Source: Candidatus Tepidiaquacella proteinivora (GTDB taxonomy: Bacteria; Bacteroidota; Ignavibacteria; Tepidaquicellales; Tepidaquicellaceae). From it: a stretch of 64,000 bases of DNA. This document shows positions 29,101-62,426 of the stretch, piece after piece; within the stretch, counting starts at the first letter, position 1, and every line of letters begins with the position of its first letter. The notes under the pieces were generated by a model. The model searched no databases. It saw only the letters and a list, made by a program, of their open reading frames with translations, and was not told the DNA's origin. The DNA lies in assembly GCA_013348845.1 (NCBI GenBank), contig CP054675.1, positions 1,125,501-1,189,500 on the forward strand. Direction: 5' to 3'. Position numbers and translations under genes: made by a program.

Positions 29101-29148
29101 GTTATTGAAAATATTTAATATATTCTTTATATTTGTATTTTTATAATT

Positions 29149-29220
29149 GCTCCCATCGACTAGTGGTTAGGTCATCACTCTTTCACAGTGAAGACACGGG
29201 TTCGAGTCCCGTTGGGAGCG
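29149..29220 (+). tRNA. tRNA-Glu (anticodon TTC)
   Basis: All four arms fold: acceptor GCTCCCA/TGGGAGC, D-arm GAC/GTC, anticodon stem TCACT/AGTGA with loop CTTTCAC (anticodon TTC) and T-arm ACGGG/CCCGT with loop TTCGAGT. The discriminator is G at 29220. CCA is not encoded. It lies alone between the small lipoprotein gene and a T9SS cargo gene. Confidence 0.97.
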
Positions 29221-55918: not shown

Positions 55919-58900
55919 TTAAATTTCTTCTTTTTTATCAGTTCCGTTTAATGCTAATTTTTTATAAAGTTTGATTTTATTATAAACATCTTGTTGAGCT
56001 AATTCAAGTAATTTCTTTGCGTGTTCAGGATGGGACTTTGTAAGCATTTTATACCGGGTTTCTTTATAAGCATAATCCTCAAATTTAATCTTTGCTTCTA
56101 CTGAATCAAGCTTCAATGGATTCATTCCTTTTTTCGCTAAATCAGGATTATATCTTAATAATTGCCAATATCCACTATCAACAGCAGCTTTCTGATTTTC
56201 TATTGCTTTACCCATATCAATTCCATGTGCAATACAATGGCAGTATGCAACTATAAGGGATGGTCCTTCATAAGCTTCTGCTTCAAGAAATGCTCTAAGA
56301 CATTGTAAATCATTTGCAGCCATTGCAACTTTTGCGACATAAACACTTCCGTATGCCATTGCCATAATTGCTAAATCTTTTTTGGGAGTCGGTTTACCTG
56401 AAGCAGCAAATTTAGCAACAGCACCTAACCCTGTTGCTTTTGAACATTGTCCACCAGTGTTAGAATATACTTCAGTATCTAATACAAGTAGATTAACATT
56501 TTTACCTGAGGCAATCACATGATCTAATCCTCCATATCCGATATCATAAGCCCAACCATCACCACCAATAATCCATACAGATTTTTTAACTAAATAATCT
56601 GCTATTTCATATAATATTTTTGCATCATCATTATTTAGAGAAAAGAGTTTTTCTTTTAATATTTTCACTCTTTCCCTTTGTAAATGAATACCTAATTCAG
56701 TTGATTGGTCAGCATTTATTATTTCTGTAACCAAATCATCACCAATCAGAGAAGAATTCCTAAGTAATAATTCCTTAGCAAATTGATTTTGCTTATCTAT
56801 AGATAGTCTCATTCCAAAACCGAATTCTGCATTGTCTTCAAAAAGTGAGTTTGACCAGGCAGGACCTCTTCCTTCTTTATTAAATGTCCAGGGAGTTGTT
56901 GGTAAATTTCCCCCATAAATTGATGAACAACCTGTGGCATTTGCAATAATTGTTCTATCACCGAATAATTGTGATAACAGCTTAAGATATGGCGTTTCAC
57001 CACATCCTGCGCAAGCACCAGAATATTCAAATAAAGGTTGTAAGAATTGACTTCCTTTTATTGTTGAAATATTTAATTTACCTCGATCATATTCCGGAAT
57101 ATTGAGAAAGAATTCGAGATTTTCTCTCTCCGTAATTCGTAATGGAATTTGGGGTGCCATATTCAGCGCTTTGTGTTTTACTTCTTTCTTACTTTTTGCT
57201 GGACAAATCTCACAACAAAGTTCACAACCAGTACAATCTTCCACTGCTACCTGAATTGTGTATAAAGTATCCGGTGGAAATTCTTTACCTTTTGCTTTTG
57301 TCCATTTAAAAGTACTTGGAGCACCCTGCAAATATTTTTCACTATATACCTTGGTCCTTATCGCAGCATGTGGACAAATCATAGCACACTTACCACACTG
57401 AATACAAAGTTCTGCATCCCATACCGGTACTTCAAGCGCAATATTTCTCTTTTCCCATTGTGTGGTTCCACTCGGGAATGTACCATCAACAGGCATTTCG
57501 CTAACAGGAATTTCATCACCCAATCCTTCCATAATTTTTGCTAATGTCTTTTTAACATATTCAGGAGCTTTATCAGAAACCACTGGTGGTAATTCAATTT
57601 CACTTATATCTTTTTCGCTTACTTCAACCTTATAAAGTTTAGCTAATGTCTTATCTACCGCTTCAAAATTCTTTTTCACAATTTCTTCACCTTTAGATCC
57701 ATAGGTTTTCTTAATTGATTTTTTAATTTGTTCTATGGCTTCATCTTTTGGCAGAACTCCTGAAATTGCAAAGAAACAGGTTTGCATTATTGTATTTATT
57801 CTCGTACCCATACCAGTTTCTTTTGCAACTGAATATCCATCGATTACATAGAAATTTAGCTTTTTATCTATAATTTGTTTGCAAACCTTTTTGGGTAGTT
57901 TTTTAAATACTTCTTCTTTTGGATATGGACTGTTTAATAGAAAAGTACCACCATCTTTAATAGTTTTTAGAACATCAAATTTTTCGAGTAATGTGAACTG
58001 ATGACAACCAATAAAATCTGCTTTCTGAATCAGATAAGTTGATTTAATTGGTTTCTTTCCGAATCTTAAATGTGATATAGTAGTTGAACCAGATTTTTTC
58101 GAATCATATACAAAATATCCCTGCGCAAAATTATCAGTTTCTTCTCCGATAATCTTAATCGTATTTTTATTTGCCCCAACAGTTCCATCAGCACCTAATC
58201 CAAAAAACATTGCAGCAAAAAGACCTTCCTTATCAGTATAGAAATTTTTATCATATTCAAGACTTGTAAAAGTTACATCATCATTAATTCCAACAGTAAA
58301 ATGATTTTTAGGATTCTCTTTTTTAAGTTCATCAAATACGGCTTTAACCATTGAAGGGGTAAATTCCTTTGATGATAAACCATATCTTCCACCAATAATT
58401 AAAGGCATATCTTTAAATGGAGCATTCCCATTTCTTAACTCTTCACTAATAGCTGCAATAACATCAATATATAATGGTTCTCCTACGCTTCCCGGTTCTT
58501 TTGTTCTATCAAGTACAGCAATTTTTTTCACGGTCGATGGTATGACAGAAACAAAATGTCTGGATGAAAAGGGTCTGTATAAACGAACTTTTATAATTCC
58601 AACTTTTTCTCCAAATTTTGATGTAAGATATTCTGTTGTTTCTTCAGCGGTTTCTGCACCAGACCCCATCAAAACTATTACTCTTTCAGCATCAGGAGCT
58701 CCATAATAATCGAAAAGATTATATCTTCTACCAATTAACTCATAAAATTTATCCATTACTTTTTGAACAATATCAGGACAAGCTTGATAGAATTTATTTA
58801 CGGCTTCTCTTCCCTGAAAATATACATCTGGATTTTGTGCAGTACCTCTGATAAAAGGTCTATCAGGACTTAAAGCTCTTTTACGGTGTTCTATAACAAA

Positions 58901-59491
58901 ATCATAATTAATAAATTTCTTAATATTTTCTTCTTCAATCATTTCAATCTTCATAACTTCCGCAGATGTCCTGAACCCATCGAAAAAATGTAAAAAAGGT
59001 ATTCTTGATTCAAGTGTAGCTTCCTGTGCAATAAGTGCTAAGTCCATTACTTCTTGAACTGAATTGGAGCAAAGAAGAGCAAATCCAGTTTGTCTTGTTG
59101 CCATAACATCACTGTGATCACCAAAAATAGAAAGTGCATGTGCCGATAATGAACGAGCCGAGACATGAAATACAGTTGGAGTTAATTCGCCAGCAATTTT
59201 ATACATATTAGGAATCATTAGTAAAAGACCCTGAGATGCAGTAAATGTTGTTGTCAAAGAACCACTTTGTAAAGATCCATGAACAGCACCAGCAGCCCCT
59301 CCTTCACTTTGCATCTCAGTAACAATAGGAACCGTACCCCAAATATTTTTCCTCCCTTCCGCTGACCATGCATCTGCTAATTCACCCATTGTAGAAGAAG
59401 GTGTAATTGGGTAAATTGCGATAACTTCATTAGTATTATGCGCAATATAAGCAGCTGCCTCATTTCCATCAATTGTAATTTTTTTAGCCAT
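55919..59491 (-). CDS. nifJ: Pyruvate:ferredoxin (flavodoxin) oxidoreductase
   Basis: The 1190-residue single-chain enzyme decarboxylates pyruvate to acetyl-CoA and reduces ferredoxin. Domains in order: the N-terminal transketolase-like domain (IAVYPITPSSTMGELA-like start), the core domain with TKEPGSVGEPLYIDVI, the 2x[4Fe-4S] ferredoxin domain with CIQCGKCAMICPHAAI and CTGCELCCEICP, and the TPP domain with CAGCGETPYLKLL, NATGCSSIYGG and GDGWAYDIGYGGLDHV. AGGAG lies before the ATG. Key to anaerobic carbon metabolism. Head of the run to the glutamine synthetases. Confidence 0.97.
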   Translation of the reverse strand: MAKKITIDGNEAAAYIAHNTNEVIAIYPITPSSTMGELADAWSAEGRKNIWGTVPIVTEMQSEGGAAGAVHGSLQSGSLTTTFTASQGLLLMIPNMYKIAGELTPTVFHVSARSLSAHALSIFGDHSDVMATRQTGFALLCSNSVQEVMDLALIAQEATLESRIPFLHFFDGFRTSAEVMKIEMIEEENIKKFINYDFVIEHRKRALSPDRPFIRGTAQNPDVYFQGREAVNKFYQACPDIVQKVMDKFYELIGRRYNLFDYYGAPDAERVIVLMGSGAETAEETTEYLTSKFGEKVGIIKVRLYRPFSSRHFVSVIPSTVKKIAVLDRTKEPGSVGEPLYIDVIAAISEELRNGNAPFKDMPLIIGGRYGLSSKEFTPSMVKAVFDELKKENPKNHFTVGINDDVTFTSLEYDKNFYTDKEGLFAAMFFGLGADGTVGANKNTIKIIGEETDNFAQGYFVYDSKKSGSTTISHLRFGKKPIKSTYLIQKADFIGCHQFTLLEKFDVLKTIKDGGTFLLNSPYPKEEVFKKLPKKVCKQIIDKKLNFYVIDGYSVAKETGMGTRINTIMQTCFFAISGVLPKDEAIEQIKKSIKKTYGSKGEEIVKKNFEAVDKTLAKLYKVEVSEKDISEIELPPVVSDKAPEYVKKTLAKIMEGLGDEIPVSEMPVDGTFPSGTTQWEKRNIALEVPVWDAELCIQCGKCAMICPHAAIRTKVYSEKYLQGAPSTFKWTKAKGKEFPPDTLYTIQVAVEDCTGCELCCEICPAKSKKEVKHKALNMAPQIPLRITERENLEFFLNIPEYDRGKLNISTIKGSQFLQPLFEYSGACAGCGETPYLKLLSQLFGDRTIIANATGCSSIYGGNLPTTPWTFNKEGRGPAWSNSLFEDNAEFGFGMRLSIDKQNQFAKELLLRNSSLIGDDLVTEIINADQSTELGIHLQRERVKILKEKLFSLNNDDAKILYEIADYLVKKSVWIIGGDGWAYDIGYGGLDHVIASGKNVNLLVLDTEVYSNTGGQCSKATGLGAVAKFAASGKPTPKKDLAIMAMAYGSVYVAKVAMAANDLQCLRAFLEAEAYEGPSLIVAYCHCIAHGIDMGKAIENQKAAVDSGYWQLLRYNPDLAKKGMNPLKLDSVEAKIKFEDYAYKETRYKMLTKSHPEHAKKLLELAQQDVYNKIKLYKKLALNGTDKKEEI

Positions 59492-59728: not shown

Positions 59729-59754
59729 TTGACAAATAAAAAATAAATTATAAT
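59729..59754 (+). promoter_or_regulatory. Candidate promoter of small RNA
   Basis: TTGACA (59729-59734) and TATAAT (59749-59754), both perfect consensus hexamers, separated by 14 nt. Predicted transcription start is about 59761, where the paired 5' segment of the candidate RNA begins. The spacing is the same as at 29323-29348. Confidence 0.55.
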
Positions 59755-59760
59755 TTTTGT

Positions 59761-59940
59761 AGTAAGTGATTAAGTTATGATAAGATGTTTTAGGTATAGT
59801 AGAGAGACTATGATGAGTATAGTAAGGTTACTTCGTTCTTTAGATAAAAGAGAAGAAGTGTAAAGTGTGTTTTTCATAAATTACTCCCACCAACAAAAAA
59901 CCCCTAAATCCCGACTTTCCCCCGAGTCGGGATTTTTTTT
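59761..59940 (+). ncRNA. Candidate structured small RNA, about 180 nt
   Basis: The segment between the promoter (59729) and a strong terminator (to 59940) has no open frame of note. Its ends pair: AGTAA (59761-59765) with TTACT (59881-59885), and TTATGA (59775-59780) with TCATAA (59874-59879). Inside are a hairpin ATAGT/ACTAT (59796-59811) and a longer one ACTTC-TTCTTT/AGAGAA-GAAGT (59830-59859) with one bulged G. Closing stem, wide inner region, terminal stem and size near 180 nt resemble 6S RNA in layout, but no sequence motif proves that identity. No protein gene depends on it. Confidence 0.5.
59906..59940. terminator. Rho-independent terminator
   Basis: AAATCCCGACT (59906-59916) and AGTCGGGATTT (59925-59935), 11-bp GC-containing stem followed by a run of T. 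On the other strand an A/T-rich tail also ends in TTTTTTG, so it may stop comEC transcripts too. Confidence 0.9.
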
Positions 59941-60011: not shown

Positions 60012-62426
60012 TTAATAGTAAATCCTTTTTAAATTTTCCCCATCAGATTCAAATATTATTGAACTTTCGAAATCTGTTCTAAAAATTTTACTATTAATTA
60101 AATTTAGCTTTGATAAAGTTATATCTGTAGGATGGTTGAATCTGTTATTTAAACCACAGGAAATTACAGAAAAAACAGGCATAACTTTTACAAGAAATTC
60201 GGCTGATGTTGAATTCTTACTACCGTGATGAGCAACTTTCAGAATATCAGCTTTTAAAAAATTTCCATAACAGTCTTTCAAAATCTCCTCTGTTCCCTTT
60301 CCGATATCACTAGTAAATAATACATCTAATTTTTTATACTTGTACTTTAAAGTTATACAATTAAAATGAGAATTCATCTCAAGTAACGGATTCCTTATTT
60401 TCGAAGGATATAATATAAATATTTTGGAAGAATCCGGTAATTCAACTATATCCCCTGCTTCTACAAAATCTCTTATAATTTTTTTCTCAATTATCAAATT
60501 ATCAAGCATTACTGACAGTTTATTTGTATCCTTAAACTTTGTATCTATAATTCTTTCAACATTAAAATTCTTTATAATGTCATATATCCCACCGATATGA
60601 TCCTGATGTTTATGTGTAATAATTAACAGATGAATAGTACTTATATTTTTTTGTTGTAAATAAGGAATAATTGATTTCCTGGCACTGCTAATACCTTGAT
60701 ATGACCCACCGGCATCAATCAAAATGTTCGTCCCGTTAGAAGTTTCAATTAATGTTGCATCTCCCTGTCCAACATCAAAGAATGTAATTCTAATATTATT
60801 ATCTGATTTAAAATTAAAAATCAGGACACAAAGAATAATAAAAAAGGAGACAATAGTTCTTTTCTTAAAATTAGAAGCTTTCGCTGTAAAGATAAGAAAT
60901 AATATTATATAGTAAGCAATTGCACTTGTGAAATTAAAGTTTAACACAGAAGAATAAGAAAAAGATAGATTCCCACTCCACTTTATAAATTCTAATGTTG
61001 CAGTTAAAATCAGATTATTCAGTTCTGCAATCGCACTTGCAAATATTCCTGAAAAAAGATTAAAGATAATTTGCAAGAATCCTAAAGCTAAACAAAAATT
61101 GGAAATAGGTATAACAATAATATTTGTGAAGAAAGAGACGAATGATATTTTTCCAAAATACAAAGTCGTAATTGGTAATACTCCTATCTGTGCGGAAATT
61201 GAAGAAGCAATCAGAACTATTAGATAAAATAAAATTTTGTTATAATTTTCATCAAACTTAAATATTGATTTAAGAAGTAATTCTATTTTTTCATAGAATA
61301 AAGCAATAGAAATAATAGCACTATATGAGAGAATAAACCCGGCATCAAAAATCTGCCTCGAGTCATAAGATAAAATTAAAATAATAGAGAAAGCAATTAT
61401 ATTCAGGAAAACAACTTTTCTTTGTATAATAAAAGCGATTAATATTAATGCCCCCATTATAGATGCTCTAACAATAGAAGCTGGTGCACCAGTAAATAAA
61501 CAATAAAAAATAAGAAAAATAATAATTACAACTGTTCTGTATTCAGTTTTTAATCTGAACAATGAAAGTATAATCGTAAGAAATAAGACAATGTAAGCCA
61601 CATTTAGCCCCGAAACCGCAATTATATGCATTAAACCAGAATTAATGAAACTCTCTTTCAATTCCTCACTCATTTCACTTCGCTCTCCTACCACTAAACC
61701 TTTTAGAAATGCTCTTACTTCTCTGGAATTATAATCATCAATAGTTTTGAGTGCAAACTCCCTCGCCGGATAAATAATATTTTTAAACAAAAAGTTTAAA
61801 TTATTCTCAGATAAAACAATAACATTATCATAACCTTTAATTTTAAAAATCTTATCAATACCATGTAATTCAAGATACTTTTTGTAATTAAATCCCCCTG
61901 GTATCTTTTCAGTTGGTGCAGTTGAGAGTTTTCCAAAAGTTAATATTTCATCACCTGCGTTAAATAAAGGTAAAGGTTTTCCCTCGTCTAATTTTTTATC
62001 AGGATAAAGAAATGTCAATAACTTTCCTTTTACAAAAGTTGTATCCCCTTCAAACATTATTGCTTGGCAATCAATTAAAAATTTTACTCTTGAAGAATCA
62101 TAATCCGGAGGCTCAGTAATAATCCCCTTTAACTGAATATCTCTTGATATATCTGTATCAGGGAAATTTTTTACAGAGTTAAGTGGCTTTACATAAAAGT
62201 CAATATTAGCTTTCCCAATTCCTGCTAAAATTATAATTAAAGAAACTATAATAAAAATTTCAGACTCGTTATTTGAATGTTTACTTTTTATGATACATAA
62301 TATAAAACATAATAGAAACAAACTAACAACAACATATATATTAAACAAAACACATTGGCCTAATAAAATACCCGCTATGAATAGAAGTGCAAATTTAACT
62401 GCCGGGTATTTTTCATATGTAATCAT
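60012..62426 (-). CDS. comEC: DNA internalisation protein ComEC/Rec2
   Basis: The 804-residue membrane protein carries DNA across the inner membrane during natural transformation. An N-terminal hydrophobic DUF4131 region is followed by the Competence domain with LKGLVVGERSEMSEELKESF, SGLMHIIAVSGLNVAYI and GAPASIVRASIMG, and a C-terminal metallo-beta-lactamase domain with FFDVGQGDATLIE, THKHQDHIGGIYD and KVAHHGSKNST. The full-length architecture is intact. No other competence genes are next to it. Confidence 0.95.
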   Translation of the reverse strand: MITYEKYPAVKFALLFIAGILLGQCVLFNIYVVVSLFLLCFILCIIKSKHSNNESEIFIIVSLIIILAGIGKANIDFYVKPLNSVKNFPDTDISRDIQLKGIITEPPDYDSSRVKFLIDCQAIMFEGDTTFVKGKLLTFLYPDKKLDEGKPLPLFNAGDEILTFGKLSTAPTEKIPGGFNYKKYLELHGIDKIFKIKGYDNVIVLSENNLNFLFKNIIYPAREFALKTIDDYNSREVRAFLKGLVVGERSEMSEELKESFINSGLMHIIAVSGLNVAYIVLFLTIILSLFRLKTEYRTVVIIIFLIFYCLFTGAPASIVRASIMGALILIAFIIQRKVVFLNIIAFSIILILSYDSRQIFDAGFILSYSAIISIALFYEKIELLLKSIFKFDENYNKILFYLIVLIASSISAQIGVLPITTLYFGKISFVSFFTNIIVIPISNFCLALGFLQIIFNLFSGIFASAIAELNNLILTATLEFIKWSGNLSFSYSSVLNFNFTSAIAYYIILFLIFTAKASNFKKRTIVSFFIILCVLIFNFKSDNNIRITFFDVGQGDATLIETSNGTNILIDAGGSYQGISSARKSIIPYLQQKNISTIHLLIITHKHQDHIGGIYDIIKNFNVERIIDTKFKDTNKLSVMLDNLIIEKKIIRDFVEAGDIVELPDSSKIFILYPSKIRNPLLEMNSHFNCITLKYKYKKLDVLFTSDIGKGTEEILKDCYGNFLKADILKVAHHGSKNSTSAEFLVKVMPVFSVISCGLNNRFNHPTDITLSKLNLINSKIFRTDFESSIIFESDGENLKRIYY

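Follow-up and report, generated by a model that had tools for sequence, protein, structure and literature searches.

Locus and genomic context

Next to nothing has been described about small RNAs in the Ignavibacteria, and a full-text search of 5.39 million open papers on Ignavibacterium and small RNA yielded no account of such RNAs. The question raised here is whether an intergenic region of a genome with Ignavibacteria relatives, available as a single contig of 2.4 Mb, carries the gene of a small RNA (sRNA) and of which kind this RNA would be. The 64-kb stretch of this genome that was analysed (the window) contains a 520-base gap between nifJ, encoding pyruvate:ferredoxin oxidoreductase (55919-59491, minus strand; TIGR02176, 1874 bits), and comEC (60012-62426, minus strand; TIGR00361). 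An initial sequence-only reading had placed a standalone transcription unit between two minus-strand genes, an arrangement that the gene map confirms. The predicted sRNA of about 177 nt spans 59764-59940 on the plus strand, with its start taken from the position of a promoter box and its end from a conserved T run.

A DNA search of 59 genomes, comprising the window genome and its relatives, detected the unit in only two other genomes, both of the same genus and here called G002 and G001 (the more distant species), where the predicted RNAs measure 193 and 161 nt, respectively. Both copies adjoin nifJ and keep the divergent orientation, which is thus found in all three species. The gene comEC is convergent with the sRNA in the window species and in G002. 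Its position beside the sRNA is taken in G001 by pta-ackA (TIGR00016/TIGR00651; L085:1971-4190), which there directly adjoin the sRNA and nifJ to form a pyruvate-to-acetate locus.

Promoter and transcription start

The predicted promoter (59729-59759, plus strand) is composed of a -33 hexamer TTGACA at 59729-59734, a 17-nt spacer and the downstream box AATTTTTG, and belongs to the Bacteroidota -33/-7 type with the consensus (T/A)AnnTTTG. The main sigma factor of Bacteroidota is known to recognise TAnnTTTG (PMC7366714). The box follows TTGACA after exactly 17 nt in each of the three species of the genus and reads AATTTTTG in the window and in G002 and TATGTTTG in G001. In the 64-kb window, the TTGACA-N17-(T/A)AnnTTTG pattern occurs once, at the sRNA, compared to 0.25 occurrences expected by chance. 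The TATAAT hexamer of the earlier reading is present, as is its TTGACA, but TATAAT was misread; the conserved element with 17-nt spacing is (T/A)AnnTTTG. TATAAT lies only 14 nt from TTGACA, which accounts for the observation that a sigma-70 scan did not report a TATAAT-based promoter at the sRNA locus. As the TAnnTTTG box occupies positions -12 to -5 in Bacteroidota (PMC9723704), the predicted start was revised from 59761 to approximately 59764. A promoter of the same type, TTGAAA-N17-TATATTTG, precedes the tRNA gene at 29149 and is located at 29105-29135 (plus strand). This tRNA promoter indicates that the Bacteroidota box is in use in this Ignavibacteria genome, and the sRNA locus displays the same promoter type.

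Invariant 3' module and variable 5' body

The strongest evidence for the predicted unit is a 60-nt 3' module that had been overlooked in the earlier reading. All three species share 59 of the 60 positions of this module, TTACTCCCACCAACAAWAAACCCCTAAATCCCGACTTTCCCCCGAGTCGGGATTTTTTTT (59881-59940, plus strand), including the terminator loop, compared to DNA identities of 82% and 74% for nifJ. When the final 14 kb of the window were compared with the 13.6-kb G001 locus, the longest exact match was located at the sRNA and measured 43 nt, with the next longest match at 20 nt. Sequence conservation ends directly after the terminator T run. The tail of the module is C-rich, lacks G outside the terminator hairpin and contains the candidate seeds CTCCCACC (59884-59891) and ACCCCT (59900-59905). 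The invariant UCCCCC loop of the intrinsic terminator represents a third candidate seed. This terminator, noted as strong in the sequence-only reading, was recovered as a 12-bp stem at 59906-59935 (plus strand) followed by a T run to 59940; stem, loop and T run are unchanged in all three species. Its hairpin sequence exists as a single copy in each of the three genomes. Two terminator-like sites were reported within 3 kb, and the second of these is the identical hairpin read on the minus strand. Folding predictions leave the UCCCCC loop unpaired with a probability of 1.0, and the predicted unpaired fractions within the full RNA are 61-89% for the ACCCCU segment and 44-61% for the CUCCCACC segment, the latter spanning 43-64% across predicted ensembles.

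The 5' two thirds of the sRNA differ among the three species in sequence and in length, and the part ahead of the module ACTCCC comprises 103, 119 and 135 nt. A reading frame shared by the sRNAs of the three species was not found. The earlier statement that the unit has no coding frame therefore holds for conserved frames, but an ATG frame of 28 codons (59777-59863) exists in the window species alone. It is hardly credible that this frame is translated as a small-protein gene or a leader. The frame has no Shine-Dalgarno sequence, the G002 sRNA contains no frame of at least 8 codons and the G001 sRNA contains only one unrelated ATG frame of 13 codons.

The proposed small RNA transcription unit is strongly supported, since three species have kept its promoter, its 3' module and its terminator as well as the gene context. 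It is difficult to account in any other way for a promoter, module and terminator that are conserved around a non-coding body of variable sequence, and on this comparative evidence plus-strand transcription of the locus very likely yields a functional RNA.

Distribution of the predicted small RNA

Searched with a covariance model built from the 3' module, the genomes of the genus scored 96-98 bits in all three cases, and no match elsewhere in a set of 294 class genomes exceeded 38 bits. Among the weak matches that were read, many are located just 3' of protein stop codons and none keeps the CUCCCACCAACA tail; based on these two features, they were taken to be ordinary terminators. Matches to ACTCCCACCAACA with one mismatch elsewhere in the family were set aside as well, as no comparable terminator follows them. 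The regions upstream of nifJ at 27 further loci, a small number of them truncated by contig ends, contained no similar promoter-terminator unit. In a check for phage or virus origin, the core of the module had no exact counterpart in viral contigs. As far as the examined genomes show, the sRNA appears to be restricted to the genus. The sequence beside nifJ is very probably a previously undescribed, genus-level sRNA gene of an ordinary regulatory kind, and it offers a candidate whose limits are well defined and whose seed region is conserved.

Predicted structure and comparison with 6S RNA

Compared to shuffled sequences, the predicted folds are more stable for the window RNA (z -2.2) and the G002 RNA (z -3.0), and no better for the G001 RNA (z -0.6). 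The two internal hairpins described earlier were found in the predicted folds at 59795-59812 and 59829-59860 (plus strand). The first hairpin is formed by UAUAGU/ACUAUG and its stem core is identical in all three species; the second has 12 bp with one bulged base and varies between species except for GUUCUUU. A stem that joins the ends of the RNA also exists, but the pairing of 59761-59765 with 59881-59885 that had been proposed is replaced by a better register, in which 59765-59771 pairs with 59879-59885 (plus strand). RNAalifold places the closing helix in a shifted form across the three species, and closing-helix pairing for the three species taken together is somewhat above that of segments drawn at random from these RNAs (fraction 0.04). 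A search for compensatory changes in the relatives identified one double-changed pair, which is no proof of structure, as covariation among three sequences with a single double change is uninformative.

The layout of the unit had been considered 6S-like. Its length of 161-193 nt in the three species, its paired ends and its wide interior do resemble 6S RNA, and a diverged 6S RNA would act as an open-promoter mimic that binds RNA polymerase. The Rfam search of the locus gave no family reaching the gathering score, and the requested comparison with the 6S model (RF00013) gave no match there even with E values up to 10. Sub-threshold Rfam matches (rnk leader, STnc240, sRNA71 and others) were rejected, as they aligned mainly to the terminator and scored far below gathering. 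The conserved central bubble with long stems that characterises 6S RNA is absent, no single long rod is common to the predicted folds of the three species, and sequence conservation is in the opposite place, with the tail and terminator outside the closing helix conserved and the interior varying more than any other part of the sRNA. A diverged 6S RNA at this locus is thus very unlikely, even though such RNAs may escape detection, given that, out of 100 genomes from the class Ignavibacteria, only 5 are matched by the Rfam 6S model. For the same reason, the absence of 6S matches elsewhere in the class means little. The RF00013 model has no match in the window genome or its two genus relatives, and a diverged 6S RNA may be present elsewhere in this genome. 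The 6S-Flavo model (RF01685) gave no match at the locus or in 100 class genomes, and the controls gave no match either. Two 6S matches above the Rfam gathering score were observed in two genomes of the same class that belong to a different family (G119:C13:30175-30387 and G049:C35:26059-26282; L154 and L155).

Resemblance to known C-rich small RNAs

In the LhrC sRNA family of Listeria monocytogenes, pairing has been proven for C-rich motifs and for the loop of the terminator (PMC4132741). LhrC resembles the RNA described here in its CUCCC/UCCC motifs, which occupy G-poor sequence, namely a single-stranded stretch and the loop of the terminator. Shine-Dalgarno regions are the pairing partners of UCCC-type sRNAs, and such pairing may be assumed by analogy for the Ignavibacteria sRNA. 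In contrast to LhrC, the latter is a single-copy gene whose host has few Shine-Dalgarno sites, and the two RNAs share neither sequence homology nor an Rfam match. The same kinds of pairing site are proven for RepG from Helicobacter pylori (PMC8295292), an sRNA that is likewise intergenic and conserved and has a terminator loop rich in C and U. RepG is not homologous to the Ignavibacteria sRNA, for which a G-repeat target was not identified. Helicobacter pylori is not known to possess Hfq, which likewise was not found in the genus studied here.

GibS of Bacteroides thetaiotaomicron (145 nt; PMC7366714) resembles the Ignavibacteria sRNA in its intergenic location, the TAnnTTTG promoter system of its host, its genus-level conservation and its conserved unstructured seed. 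GibS adjoins a metabolic operon that it regulates, and the Ignavibacteria sRNA adjoins nifJ. The two RNAs are not homologous, and the seed is located at the 5' end in GibS, whereas the candidate seeds of the Ignavibacteria sRNA are found at the 3' end.

Possible mode of action and target search

Base pairing is considered the most likely mode of action, based on the C-rich motifs and the analogy with known C-rich sRNAs. We lean towards an antisense sRNA that is aimed at G-rich ribosome-binding regions. As Hfq was searched for and not found in the genus genomes, such pairing would need to be Hfq-independent. The 5' domain, with its closing helix and hairpins, would serve as a closed scaffold that presents the 3' tail. 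The CUCCCACC and ACCCCU segments and the UCCCCC loop could then pair in trans with G-rich stretches of certain mRNAs, located at the Shine-Dalgarno sequence or in the leader, and pairing would block or change their translation without Hfq. The locus suggests that C-rich seed logic extends beyond Firmicutes and Helicobacter to bacteria without recognisable Hfq. A role in pyruvate and acetate metabolism is plausible, considering the divergent arrangement with nifJ in three of three species and, in one species, the position with pta-ackA on one side and nifJ on the other.

Potential targets were searched with the conserved module. For the window species, an 8-bp duplex is predicted between AUUACUCC and the Shine-Dalgarno sequence GGAGUAAU of nifJ, involving the leader stretch AGGAGUAAU, with an energy of -10.7 kcal/mol and a p value of about 0.003 relative to shuffled sequences. 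The equivalent duplexes of G002 and G001 are weak and do not clearly stand out from shuffled sequences (p 0.16 and 0.28, respectively). Across 54 window genes, the module showed no preference for translation initiation regions over coding sequence. Extended complementarity to UUACUCCCACCAA was not found ahead of a plausible start codon in the three genomes, and nearly all complementary matches fall within long frames. Searches of the three genomes for GTGGGAG or GGGGGA ahead of ATG had no gene in common among the matches listed.

Two other explanations were considered. It is possible, if rather unlikely, that the invariant C-rich tail and the terminator loop of a real sRNA are bound by a protein, either an RNA chaperone or a titrated regulator, and not by mRNAs. 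The invariance of the single-stranded tail together with the terminator would agree with this, as would the outcome that the searches predicted no mRNA targets; another partner might also be needed, given that the search recovered no Hfq from the genus genomes. The evidence points to no particular protein, though, C-rich loops are better known for mRNA pairing, and a CsrA sponge is disfavoured by the absence of a repeated GGA loop motif from the tail. Still less probable is a function in cis only, in which a short divergent transcript or a bidirectional terminator insulates nifJ from the convergent neighbour of the unit or affects the nifJ promoter and has no role in trans. The constant divergence of the unit from nifJ and the terminator-like character of the hairpin on the opposite strand fit such an element, but a terminator needs neither an invariant loop nor an invariant upstream tail of 25 nt, and the module is unchanged in G001 despite the different convergent neighbour.

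An extension of the base-pairing reading is that the RNA represents a new Ignavibacteria family, which acts without Hfq through three redundant C-rich sites and controls the Shine-Dalgarno-bearing minority of mRNAs, starting with nifJ. This proposal is speculative and, taken as a whole, improbable. If true, it would reveal a regulatory RNA coupled to pyruvate and acetate metabolism in an organism where most genes lack Shine-Dalgarno sites. With start codons picked by a simple rule, a Shine-Dalgarno sequence of at least 4 bases was not visible in 35 of 54 window genes of at least 90 codons; nifJ, comEC and some others have one. The G001 genome contains repeated G-rich stretches (GGGGGATGGGTGGATG, GGGGGATTGGATG and others) at C65:5232-5391, C5:17623-17691 and C59:93745-94375, some of which are regularly stepped.
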